From an uncultured Sphingomonadaceae bacterium (lineage in GTDB: Bacteria > Pseudomonadota > Alphaproteobacteria > Sphingomonadales > Sphingomonadaceae), in contig CALKJZ010000024.1 of assembly GCA_937995515.1 (NCBI GenBank), forward strand, positions 1-64,000: a stretch of DNA of 64,000 nt, read 5' to 3'. Below, piece by piece: positions 1,935 through 49,336 of this stretch (within the stretch, counting starts at the first letter, position 1; the number at the start of each line of letters is the position of its first letter). The notes under the pieces are model-generated. The model saw only the letters and a list, made by a program, of their open reading frames with translations, had not been told where the DNA came from and did not search any database. Made by a program: the position numbers and the translations under genes.

Positions 1935-5201
<3,267 letters not shown>

Positions 5202-30584: not shown

Positions 30585-31274
30585 ATGGGCCTGATCGCCT
30601 ACCTCGACAGCGTGAAGGCGCGCGACCCGGCGCCGCGCTCGCGCCTCGAGATCCTCACCTACCCGGGCGTCTGGGCCCTCGGCTTCCATCGCATCGCCCA
30701 TGCGCTCTATCGCTGGCGGCTGTTCCTGCTCGCGCGCATGGTCAACCACCTCAGCCGGTTCCTCACGGCAATCGACATCCACCCGGGCGCGCGGATCGGG
30801 CGCAACCTGTTCATCGACCATGGCTTTGTGGTGATCGGCGAAACCTCCGAGATTGGCGACAATGTGACCATCTACCAGGGCGCGACCCTGGGCGGCACCA
30901 ACCCGACCTCCGGCGTCGGCGGCAAGCGCCACCCGACCATCGGCAATGATGTCGTCGTCTCGCTGGGCGCAGCCATCCTCGGCCCCATCCGCGTGGGCGA
31001 TGGCGCACGAATCGGCGCCAATGCGGTTGTCACAAGGGATGTCGCCCCCGGCGCCACCATGGTCGGGATCCCGGCGCGGCCGGTTCCCGTGCCCGCGGAA
31101 GACCGGCAGCAGTTCACCCCCTATGGCGCGCCCTGCTCCGAGCGGTTCGACCCTGTCACCCAGCGGGTCGAGCTTCTGAAGTGCGAGATGGAGGAGCTGC
31201 GCGCCCGGCTGGAGGCGTTCGCGCGCGAGGAGGCCGCACGCCAGGCTGCAGCCGGCCGCGGCGAGGCGGCGTGA
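30585..31274 (+). CDS. cysE: Serine O-acetyltransferase CysE/EpsC
   Basis: Catalyses acetyl transfer from acetyl-CoA to serine, the first step of cysteine synthesis. The 229-residue protein has the N-terminal helical part [19 protein letters not shown], the catalytic FHRIAHAL, and a left-handed hexapeptide beta helix ([20 protein letters not shown] and [20 protein letters not shown]). The C-terminal tail is a polar helix. I took the ATG at 30585, preceded by AAGGGG, rather than a TTG 16 codons upstream, since the family begins at this point. Confidence 0.93.
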
Positions 31275-31344
31275 CGGGCCGCCCGACGGGACGGCTCGCA
31301 GGCAGGCCCGAGACCCGCGCGCAGCGGGGCGCAACGGGCCGGGC

Positions 31345-45571: not shown

Positions 45572-46032
45572 CCGCCGCGCGGACGCGGCCGGCCGGGCCG
45601 TCCCCGGGCTTCTGCCATCCCCGCGCGGGCGGCCCACGCAAGAAGCGGCATTTCCGGGCGTAAAGGAAGCAGCCGCCGGCCACTCGGCCGGCACCAACAT
45701 CCGCCAAGGCGGCACGAGGCGGCACGCCACGGGCCGATGCCGGCGATGCGGGAACGGAGCCGGCCCGGCCGTTTCGGGCGCGACCGCCTTGGCCATTGCG
45801 TGGCCCCCGCCGCTTGTGCATCATCCCGGGCGAAGACGCGGGGGAAGTCGGAAACGAGGGCTGGCGTGACGGCGATCGGGCGTGGAGAACGGGTCGTGGT
45901 GCCGCTCGGGGCGGCCGGCCCCGCGATGCGGCACCGAGCGATTCGGCACCGAGCGATGCGTCATCCGGCGCTGCGGCGCCGAGCGAGGCAGCGGCCCCGC
46001 GCCACGATCGCCCGCCTGGGGCCCGCGGGCGC
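45572..46032. other. 461-bp stretch with no recognisable gene
   Basis: No frame in this stretch shows domain features. A short low-complexity part at 45928-45990 repeats GCACCGAGCGAT-type units in front of bpt; in the bpt frame it reads Ala-Pro-Ser-Asp repeats, but bpt starts naturally at 46033. The stretch presumably holds the bpt promoter and an ilvA terminator. Confidence 0.45.
45675..45692 (+). terminator. Hairpin downstream of ilvA
   Basis: GCCGGCC (45675-45681) and GGCCGGC (45686-45692) form a perfect 7-bp stem with a 4-base loop about 100 bp after the ilvA stop. No T-tract follows, and the region is GC-rich enough for chance stems, so the role is tentative. Confidence 0.3.
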
Positions 46033-46830
46033 ATGACCGACCAGCCGACCCGCTTCCCGCGGTTCTTCATCACGGCAGATGCGCCCTGCCCCTATCTGCC
46101 CGGGCGCACCGAGCGGAAGATCTTCGCCGAGCTTCGCGGGCGCGACGCGGCGCGCATGAGCGAAGGGCTCGGCCGGATCGGCTTCCGGCGCAGCCAGAAT
46201 GTCGTCTACCGCCCGGCCTGCGAAGGCTGCTCGGCCTGCGTTTCGGTGCGGATCGTGGCGCGGGAGTTCGTGCCCACGGCCTCGCAGCGGCGGCTGCTGC
46301 GGCGCCACGCCGATCTCGACGTAGCCGCCGCCGACCCGTGGGCGACGGAGGAGCAGTTCGAGCTCCTGAAGGCCTATCTGCGCGCACGTCATCCCGGCGG
46401 CGGCATGGCGTCGATGGACGCCTACGACTTCGCCGAGATGATCGAGACCTCGCCGGTCGAGACGGTGGTGGTCGAGTATCGCGAACCGTCGACCGACGGG
46501 CGACCGGGCCGGCTGGTGGGCGCCTGCCTGACCGACAAGCAGTCCGACGGCCTGTCGATGGTCTACAGCTTCTACGACACGGAGCGTCCGGGCCGCCCCG
46601 GCCTTGGCACATTCATCATCCTCGACCATGTGCTGCGCGCCGCCCAGGTGGGCCTGCCCTTCGTCTACCTTGGCTACTGGGTCAGCGGGTCGGCCCGGAT
46701 GGACTACAAGCGCCGCTTCCACCCGCTGGAGGCGCTTTCGGCGCGCGGCTGGAGCCGGCTTCCGCAATGGCGGCCGGAGCCGGCCCAAGCCGAACCCGAG
46801 GCCACCCACGCCGCCCGCGCGGCGCTCTAG
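46033..46830 (+). CDS. bpt: Aspartate/glutamate leucyltransferase Bpt
   Basis: Transfers Leu from Leu-tRNA to N-terminal Asp or Glu of proteins, marking them for degradation through the N-end rule. The 265-residue protein has [15 protein letters not shown] and [20 protein letters not shown] in the N-terminal half, then the GNAT-like C-terminal part with [19 protein letters not shown] and [15 protein letters not shown]. The ATG at 46033 matches the family start (FPRFFITAD); the frame is open further upstream but only as low-complexity sequence. ubiG follows with a 4-bp gap. Confidence 0.92.
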
Positions 46831-46834
46831 GCCC

Positions 46835-47638
46835 ATGGCGCCGGCATCCATGGCCTTGCCCGGGGCTGCATCGGGGGCTGCGGCCACAGTTGCGTCGGGG
46901 CGGACGGTCGACCGCGCCAATGTCGCGCTGTTCGGCACGCTGGCTGCAGGCTGGTGGGATCCGGAAGGCCCCTCGCGGCTTCTCCACCGCATCAATCCGG
47001 TGCGGCTCTCGTTCCTGCGCGCGCGCGCTGCCGCGCACTTCGGCCGGCCGGCCAGCCGGCGGCATGCGCTTGTAGGTCTTGCCGCGCTCGATGTCGGCTG
47101 CGGCGGCGGGCTGGTCAGCGAGCCGCTGGCGCGCATGGGGGCAAGGGTGGTGGGCCTCGATGCCTCGGGCGAGGCGATCGCCGTCGCGCGCGACCATGCC
47201 CGGCTCGCAGGGCTTTCGATCGACTACCGCGAGGGCGAGGCGGAAACCCTCGCCGAGACCATGCCACACGCTTTCGATCTCCTTACCTGCTTCGAGGTGA
47301 TCGAGCATGTCGCCGACGTGCCGCTGTTCCTCGGCGCGCTCCACCGGCTGCTGAAGCCGGGAGGACTTCTCGTCTTCTCCACGCCCAACCGCACCGGCCT
47401 CTCGCACGCCGTGATGATCACCGGCGCCGAACGGCTCCTGCGCGCGCTGCCCAGGGGCGCGCACGACTGGAGCCGCTTTCTCACCCCGGCCGAACTCGCC
47501 CGGCATCTCGAGCGGGCCGGCTTCGACCTCGGCCCGATCGAGGGGCTCTCGTGGCGGCCGGGCCGGGGCTTCCACTTGTCGGACGACCTGCGCGTCAACT
47601 ATTTTGGCTCGGCAGTGGCCCGGGAGAGGAGCTCATGA
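46835..47638 (+). CDS. ubiG: Ubiquinone biosynthesis O-methyltransferase UbiG
   Basis: Catalyses the two O-methylations of ubiquinone synthesis. The 267-residue SAM methyltransferase has LDVGCGGGLVSEPLARMGA (motif I), FDLLTCFEVIEHV and LLVFSTPNRTG, and the UbiG-type N terminus VALFGTLAAGWWDPEGPSRLLHRINPVRL. The start ATG follows the bpt stop by 4 bp; a second ATG five codons in is an alternative. The last codons fall within a 20-bp tandem duplication that carries the next gene's start signals. Confidence 0.93.
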   Translation: MAPASMALPGAASGAAATVASGRTVDRANVALFGTLAAGWWDPEGPSRLLHRINPVRLSFLRARAAAHFGRPASRRHALVGLAALDVGCGGGLVSEPLARMGARVVGLDASGEAIAVARDHARLAGLSIDYREGEAETLAETMPHAFDLLTCFEVIEHVADVPLFLGALHRLLKPGGLLVFSTPNRTGLSHAVMITGAERLLRALPRGAHDWSRFLTPAELARHLERAGFDLGPIEGLSWRPGRGFHLSDDLRVNYFGSAVARERSS

Positions 47639-47659
47639 CCCGGGAGAGGAGCTCATGAC
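47619..47659 (+). repeat. 20-bp tandem duplication of a ribosome-binding site and start codon
   Basis: The sequence from 47619 to 47639 recurs exactly at 47639-47659 (period 20). Each copy holds GGGAGAGGAGCTCATGA, an excellent Shine-Dalgarno site plus an ATG. The first ATG (47635) overlaps the ubiG stop as ATGA and opens a 7-codon minicistron ending at 47658; the second ATG (47655) overlaps that stop as ATGA and starts the VOC gene. The duplication thus inserted a complete tiny cistron between two coupled genes. Confidence 0.9.
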
Positions 47660-48191
47660 GGAGATGGGGACAGACCGGCTGCGCGGCATTCACCACAGCG
47701 CGTTCCGCTGCCGCGACGCGGAGGAAACCCGCGCCTTCTACGAGGATGTGCTGGGGCTTCCGGTGGCCGCCGCCCTCGCCTTCGAGGCGGAACCGGGAAG
47801 CGGCAGGCCGCACCCCTATGTGCACATTTTCTTCCGCTTGCCCGACGGCAATTTCATCGCCTTCTTCGATGCACCCGATTCGGCCCGGCCTGAGCATTTC
47901 CTTCCCGCCCATGGCTTCGACCGCCACATCGCCTTCGAGGCGGGCTCCCTTGAGGCGCTGGCCGAGTGGAAGGCGCGGCTGGATGCCAGGGGCGTGAACA
48001 GCTTCGGGCCGATCGACCATGGCTTCGTCCGGTCGCTCTACATGTGGGATCCCAACGGCCTTCAGGTGGAGATCACCGCCCGCGTGCCCGACCATGATGC
48101 GATCCTCGCGCACGAGGAAGCGCAGGCGCGCGACATTCTTGCCGAGTGGACAAGGCGCACGGCAGACGCAAAAGCCCGGTTGCGCGCATGA
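47655..48191 (+). CDS. VOC-family (glyoxalase/dioxygenase-like) protein
   Basis: A 178-residue vicinal-oxygen-chelate protein with two beta-alpha-beta3 modules. The first metal ligand His is in GIHHSAFRCRD, a second His lies around HPYVHIFFRLPDG and FDRHIAFEA, and Glu is in GLQVEITARV. Such folds serve glyoxalases, extradiol dioxygenases and resistance proteins. It is coupled to ubiG through the duplicated start region and to the alpha/beta hydrolase by ATGA. A dioxygenase followed by a hydrolase recalls aromatic meta-cleavage, but the hydrolase does not look like a typical MCP hydrolase, so the reaction is open. Confidence 0.78.
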   Translation: MTEMGTDRLRGIHHSAFRCRDAEETRAFYEDVLGLPVAAALAFEAEPGSGRPHPYVHIFFRLPDGNFIAFFDAPDSARPEHFLPAHGFDRHIAFEAGSLEALAEWKARLDARGVNSFGPIDHGFVRSLYMWDPNGLQVEITARVPDHDAILAHEEAQARDILAEWTRRTADAKARLRA

Positions 48192-49336
48192 GCGATTTCG
48201 AGCGGGTGCCGCTGCACCTCGTGTTCCGCGAGGAGGTGACGGTGCGCGACACCTATGGCGGGATCGCGGGCCTCGTCGCGCTCCAGGGCCATCTCCTGAA
48301 GCCGCCAACCCCGGCACGGACGCTCATCGTCTTCATGCACCCCATGGGCATCATGCACTATCTGCCCATGCCGATGGGGCTTGCCGCGGCGGGCCTGCAC
48401 TGCCTGACTGCGGTCTCGCGCTACCCCAACAATGATTCGGCGCTCATCATGGAGAAGGTGGCAGCCGATCTTGCCGCCTGGATGCGCCACGCGCGCACCG
48501 GGCTTGGCTACGAGAAGATCGTGCTGGCAGGCTGGTCGGGCGGCGGCTCGCTGTCGCTCTTCGTGCAGTCGCAGGCGGTCAGGCCGCGCATTGGCGCCAC
48601 GCCGGCGGGAGACCCGGTCGACCTTGCGGACATCCCGCCCGCCGACGCGATGCTCCTGCTTGCGGCCCATGTGAGCCGCGCGGCGACGCTGACCGAGTGG
48701 CTCGACCCCTCGATCACCGACGAGGCCCGCCCGTTCGACCGCGCCGCCGAATGGAACCTCTATGCCGATCCGCCGCCGGCCCGGCCGCCCTATCCCGCCG
48801 ACTGGGTGGCGGCGTTCCGCGCGCGGCAGGTGGCGCGCAACCGGCGCATCACCGAATGGGCGCAGGCGACGCTCGAGACCATCCGGCAGCAGGACGGCCC
48901 GCACGCCGAGCGGGCCTTTGTCGTCCACGGCACCATGGCCGACCCGCGCTGGCTTGACCCTTCGATCGACCCGAACGACCGGGTGCCCGGCCGCTGCTAT
49001 CTCGGCGACCCGCGCGCCATCAACGATGCCCCTGGCGGGCTTGCGCGCTTTTCCACGCTGCGCTCCTGGCTCTCGCAATGGGGGCTCGAGACGTCGCAGG
49101 CCGATGGCGTCGCCTGCGCGGCGGATTGCCATGTGCCGACGCTCGTCGTCTCCAACTCCGCCGACGACGCCTGCACGCCCAGCCACGCGCAGCGGCTGTT
49201 CGAGGCCGTGGCGGCACCCGACAAGACCCTCGCCACCATCCCGGGCGCCACCCACTATTATGCGTTCCAGCCAGAGAAACTGGCGCAGGCCGTCGGCGTG
49301 GTGAAGGCCTGGCTCGGCGAACGCGGCCTGCTCTAG
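48188..49336 (+). CDS. Alpha/beta hydrolase
   Basis: A 382-residue alpha/beta hydrolase. The nucleophile elbow is AGWSGGGSLSL (Ser 117), the acid is probably in NSADDACTPSHAQRL, and the catalytic His is in PGATHYYAFQ near the C terminus. A long insert between residues about 150 and 290 (lid-like, rich in Asp/Pro/Arg) makes it larger than simple esterases. It is coupled to the VOC gene. The substrate is unknown; an ester or C-C bond hydrolase acting after the VOC enzyme is one guess. Confidence 0.8.
   Translation: MSDFERVPLHLVFREEVTVRDTYGGIAGLVALQGHLLKPPTPARTLIVFMHPMGIMHYLPMPMGLAAAGLHCLTAVSRYPNNDSALIMEKVAADLAAWMRHARTGLGYEKIVLAGWSGGGSLSLFVQSQAVRPRIGATPAGDPVDLADIPPADAMLLLAAHVSRAATLTEWLDPSITDEARPFDRAAEWNLYADPPPARPPYPADWVAAFRARQVARNRRITEWAQATLETIRQQDGPHAERAFVVHGTMADPRWLDPSIDPNDRVPGRCYLGDPRAINDAPGGLARFSTLRSWLSQWGLETSQADGVACAADCHVPTLVVSNSADDACTPSHAQRLFEAVAAPDKTLATIPGATHYYAFQPEKLAQAVGVVKAWLGERGLL

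Follow-up and report, generated by a model that had tools for sequence, protein, structure and literature searches.

MIRUs are short repeats at gene starts with a small ORF that is coupled to the next gene at a -4 spacing, as described in PMC12548453, and according to PMC3914561 they measure 46-101 bp, occupy 41 loci in M. tuberculosis H37Rv, appear mobile and also occur in tandem copies. In the account given by PMC10666635, the -4 overlap is the commonest spacing, reinitiation is efficient at overlaps and falls steeply with distance, with a loss of 40-80% at +14 nt in three E. coli pairs, and a distance of about 20 nt nearly abolishes it. Short leader genes, as presented in PMC4833913, are short ORFs from which reinitiation is proposed to boost the start of translation at the following gene; they do not overlap the structural gene, with distances that peak at 10-13 bp in Proteobacteria. 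Bicistronic designs (BCDs) of synthetic biology, in turn, are engineered behind a promoter. A short leader cistron ahead of the target gene is named in PMC5995908. The excerpts of the literature matches listed hold no report of a stop/start junction that was duplicated in tandem and so made a minicistron.

At the locus described here, from an uncultured Sphingomonadaceae bacterium, the stop/start junction between ubiG and a VOC (glyoxalase-fold) gene is present as an exact tandem duplication. Read directly in the window, meaning the whole stretch of 64,000 nucleotides that was analysed, positions 47619-47659 hold 2.05 exact tandem copies of CCCGGGAGAGGAGCTCATGA (41 bases in all), the C at 47659 continuing the match to the unit for one base beyond the second copy, and 47615-47663 reads GTGG-CCCGGGAGAGGAGCTCATGA-CCCGGGAGAGGAGCTCATGA-CGGAG. 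The features of the locus are the following.

46835..47638, plus strand: ubiG, 267 aa, identified by translation and by UbiG TIGR01983 (227.8 bits, cutoff 102.95).
47619..47638, plus strand: repeat copy 1, CCCGGGAGAGGAGCTCATGA, which encodes the end of ubiG, Shine-Dalgarno 1 and ATGA 1 (sequence, Tandem Repeats Finder).
47635..47658, plus strand: seven-codon minicistron MTRERSS, between the ATGA at 47635-47638 and the ATGA at 47655-47658 (translation).
47639..47658, plus strand: repeat copy 2, identical, with Shine-Dalgarno 2 and ATGA 2 (sequence, Tandem Repeats Finder).
47655..48191, plus strand: VOC gene, 178 aa (PF00903, 51.6 bits, cutoff 20.6).
48188..49336, plus strand: alpha/beta-hydrolase gene (PF12146, 32.0 bits, cutoff 27), with one ATGA overlap with VOC.

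Tandem Repeats Finder (TRF) reports 47619-47659 with a period of 20, 2.0 copies, 100% matches and a score of 82, which ranks second of the 70 rows in the window and first among those with 100% matches. The top row of the window (score 84) is an imperfect 15-bp array of 4.3 copies at 45923-45986, upstream of an arginyltransferase gene with a called start at 46033. The last residues of UbiG, ARERSS, are encoded within the first copy, with the stop TGA at 47636-47638, and the minicistron runs ATG ACC CGG GAG AGG AGC TCA TGA, its two stop/start overlaps, at 47635 and 47655, both being of -4 nt (ATGA), as in a termination-reinitiation pair. Other starts are possible for both flanking genes, an ATG at 46850 for ubiG, picked by a home-made gene finder, and an ATG at 47664 for VOC. 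The 21-base unit was found nowhere else in the 2.42-Mb assembly with up to three mismatches, beyond the two adjacent copies. Unrelated sequence would not give a perfect 20-bp tandem copy by chance, although events of this kind are frequent in this genome.

The sequence-only reading of this DNA had claimed that the ribosome-binding site (RBS) and ATGA are doubled and that a seven-codon cistron lies between two ATGA overlaps, an anatomy confirmed by the sequence, TRF and translation. Taken as a whole that reading, which also suggested double reinitiation and possible tuning of the downstream genes, is partly supported; the double framing comes automatically with a 3n+2 copy. As the frame changes by -1 at the ATGA overlap, and 20 bp is likewise -1 modulo 3, translation from the first ATG takes the second copy in the frame that ubiG uses for the first, so the minicistron is necessarily open up to the second ATGA. 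When duplications of 12-40 bp that include the ATGA were simulated on a one-copy junction, every one of 3n+2 bp (207/207) produced a minicistron whose stop lies in the VOC ATGA, while simulated 3n-bp duplications extended VOC at its N-terminus (225/225) and those of 3n+1 bp gave an ORF ending within VOC (235/235). The double ATGA framing and the peptide thus follow automatically from duplicating an ATGA-containing unit of 3n+2 bp.

The junction was compared with that of nine other genomes in which ubiG lies directly upstream of VOC (G001-G004, L025, L026, L031, L061 and L062). They came from a genus sample of five genomes, the window's own included, from a scan of named genomes that gave seven loci, four of them on the same contigs as G001-G004, and from a family search of 298 genomes, 28 of which matched the VOC profile at an E value no higher than 1e-40, with neighbours checked at 30 loci. 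The junctions of L026 and L060 are identical; L064 and L066, in which ubiG lies about 1.3 kb upstream, were not counted, and neither were the other family loci, which had no ubiG match in the stretch examined. The order ubiG-VOC-hydrolase is the same in all five genus genomes, and the VOC protein shares 76-81% identity with its counterparts in the four genus relatives.

None of the nine comparable genomes, all from other species, carries a tandem duplication at this junction. Eight have a spacer of 16-105 nt and one, L031, has a single ATGA overlap. From the ubiG stop to the likely VOC ATG, the spacer measures 16 nt in L027 and L028, 51 in L030, 61 in L026, 64 in L062, 76 in L061, 94 in L029 and 105 in L025, the ATG in L025, L026 and L030 being our choice among several candidates. 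In the window, VOC has a full Shine-Dalgarno and starts 16 nt past the ubiG stop, a spacing equal to that of two sister species (L027, L028). Leaders resembling the unit precede VOC in L030 (GGGAGAGGAGAGC-ATG) and in L026 (GGGAGAGAGAGC-ATGAC), both well behind the ubiG stop, and those of the remaining relatives are less similar to it. An ancestral fixed arrangement is ruled out, with the duplication missing from nine of nine relatives. The sister comparison that the sequence-only reading had called for bears out a lineage-specific status, and its phrase "operon remodelling" is justified, an overlap between ubiG and VOC being unusual in itself when eight of the nine have a spacer. In short, the copies are adjacent and identical, and the relatives compared, all of other species, have one copy or none.

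We consider it likely that the repeat is a recent slippage duplication, near-neutral and tolerated because both flanking proteins stay intact. In a first step, the spacer would have been lost and the 3' end of ubiG fused to the VOC leader, which would have left one ATGA overlap, as in L031, and given ubiG a new tail. In a second step, the 20-bp junction, comprising the VOC RBS leader and the ATGA, would have been copied in tandem, probably by replication slippage, whereupon a minicistron ending in the second ATGA would arise with no further change. In L025, L026 and L061 UbiG closes with GTAV and two further residues, in the window with GSAV plus ARERSS, so the ubiG tail of the window reads through the VOC leader. 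This fits simulations in which gene overlaps form more often by 3' elongation of the upstream gene, as summarised in PMC3887535. In the cell, a ribosome that has finished ubiG would either take up again at the first ATG, go through the seven codons and start once more at VOC, or reach VOC and its own strong Shine-Dalgarno directly over 16 nt, which would be less efficient than two hops; VOC might also be started de novo, and we would expect little net effect on VOC output. We infer slippage, the order of the steps, the behaviour of ribosomes and near-neutrality as the most likely account of the sequence. Judged from one assembly and from relatives of other species, the duplication looks recent.

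The strongest rival to a near-neutral duplication, which we nonetheless hold to be unlikely, is that the minicistron is a selected functional coupling element that would load ribosomes, keep Shine-Dalgarno 2 open and hand over to VOC, much like a synthetic BCD. In its favour, the predicted Shine-Dalgarno pairing is identical and strong at both ATGs (-8.3 kcal/mol), against -2.4 kcal/mol at the ubiG ATG 46835 and at the hydrolase start (computed against a 16S tail), and with equally strong pairing at both, the doubling might well change how much VOC is made. That two overlap hops could pass ribosomes better than a 16-nt jump is consistent with the distances given in PMC10666635, and PMC12548453 discusses short ORFs that bring ribosomes to a following gene; both lend the coupling element some support. 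Against it, the arrangement is missing from all nine relatives with the same gene order, eight of which have no overlap of any kind, and the conservation among relatives that marks a leader cistron was seen in 0/9; moreover, peptide and framing are already produced by the simulated duplication alone. Nor does the predicted accessibility of the VOC start favour it, as opening energies for two copies versus one (9.25/8.25, 10.90/6.67 and 10.85/10.77 kcal/mol at three fold lengths) vary with fold length and reveal no consistent change. A special RNA structure was also considered and rejected: a CCCGGG-CCCGGG pairing is possible around Shine-Dalgarno 1, and the junction folds no better than shuffled sequences (z 1.15 over 96 nt and 0.02 over 60 nt). 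Double reinitiation is possible and need not matter.

An assembly artefact, arising from the joining of two contig ends whose 20-bp overlap went unnoticed or from a repeat doubled by the assembler, is improbable. Ordinary sequencing reads are longer than the 41-bp tract, which counts against an artefact even though the record is a 31-contig draft, and the other duplications of this genome behave as real ones would, keeping frame inside called genes. Exact tandem duplications with a unit of at least 12 bp form 41 rows in 802,648 bases of the same genome (the window plus 40 stretches; some rows overlap). The units are multiples of 3 in 11/11 rows inside called genes versus 9/26 intergenic rows (Fisher p 0.0002), a test that omitted four of the 41 rows as edge rows, the ubiG/VOC repeat among them and none a multiple of 3, and that is biased, a frame-breaking copy shortening the called gene and being classed as edge. 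With three genus relatives added, the four genomes pooled give 18/18 coding and 12/34 intergenic rows, six edge rows being omitted. These figures suggest that the duplications are real and frame-filtered by selection, within the bias from edge classing. A first, cruder home-made gene finder gave one of 14 coding duplications off frame, versus 0/11 with the second; the first finder got the strand of ilvA and bpt wrong, and its calls were dropped in favour of those of the second, also home-made.

The three genus relatives contain 17 rows of the same class in 800,000 bases (6 in 400 kb of G001, 5 in 200 kb of G004 and 6 in 200 kb of G003), and the own genome, in the part sampled and with the window counted in, exceeds this about 2.4-fold (41/803 kb vs 17/800 kb; binomial p 0.002). 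Separately, a 13-bp tandem repeat (TCGGCGAGGAGCG) with similar flanks lies at or near four contig ends of the own genome (L040:4, L044:4, L099:107 and L102:10462), which suggests a multicopy element that breaks the assembly.

The last alternative, a copy-number-variable repeat switching VOC expression by slippage, is highly improbable: tandem repeats can vary in copy number and each extra 20-bp copy would add a similar minicistron, but the VOC start stays intact at any copy number, which leaves no on/off state, and a repeat of just two 20-bp copies should seldom change.

Framing by two overlaps is found elsewhere in the genus. ORFs with overlaps at both ends, counted with ATGA or GTGA at the first stop and dependent on called starts, occur at 22 of 1,039 called same-strand pairs, the ubiG/VOC case included (11/507 in G000, 5/267 in G001, 1/149 in G004 and 5/116 in G003), and in nine of the 22 both overlaps are ATGA. 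Overlaps of -4 nt as such are found at 106 of the 507 called same-strand pairs of the own genome. The other 21 minicistrons were considered as duplication remnants and rejected, no matching run being as long as the unit (longest 9 of 17; shortest case 6 of 8). The two-overlap architecture is therefore not peculiar to the ubiG/VOC locus, whereas its origin by duplication is. Within the window itself, a small ORF framed from GTGA to ATGA lies between called genes at 31274-31344 (in the genes' own direction), with no duplication. In G001, a 14-bp unit (3n+2) that carries GTGA is repeated 4.79 times from the stop of a called gene (L119:3816-3882), giving a series of five-codon ORFs that are all bounded by GTGA, with the next called gene, at 3982, uncoupled; it parallels the ubiG/VOC repeat in following the same 3n+2 arithmetic.

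What the locus offers beyond an ordinary feature is twofold. If translated, it would be a natural experiment, useful for measuring serial reinitiation, in which a Shine-Dalgarno/ATGA module stands twice between genes that relatives keep with no duplication. It also illustrates a rule by which an ATGA junction copied by 3n+2 bp yields a minicistron with the flanking proteins unharmed, so such minicistrons could accumulate with no selection. A bolder proposition, to which we give little credence, is that frame-neutral 3n+2 copying of stop/start overlaps would be a general one-step route to coupling minicistrons, a de novo, small-scale counterpart of MIRUs, of which the ubiG/VOC repeat and the 14-bp GTGA repeat of G001 would be two snapshots, and that the minicistron would alter downstream expression.

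Set beside the described systems, the ubiG/VOC locus resembles each in part. Like ATGA-overlap pairs, it has -4 overlaps at both junctions, but it has two of them in series, 20 bp apart and made by duplication. It shares with short leader genes a short ORF ahead of the next gene and differs from them in overlapping it. As in a BCD, a short leader cistron stands before the target gene, although here within a gene row behind ubiG; in both, the second Shine-Dalgarno lies within the first cistron, whose stop overlaps the target's start. With MIRUs, judged by sequence only, the unit has in common the short repeat at a gene start and the -4 overlap of a small ORF to the next gene, and it differs in length, at 20 bp, and in dispersal, being confined to one locus, so that a dispersed MIRU-like mobile repeat family is ruled out (up to three mismatches, whole assembly). 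Unlike MIRUs, it looks copied from its own junction. The ubiG/VOC unit would accordingly work like a one-locus MIRU and yet is not a MIRU, and MIRUs are the closest natural parallel that we found.
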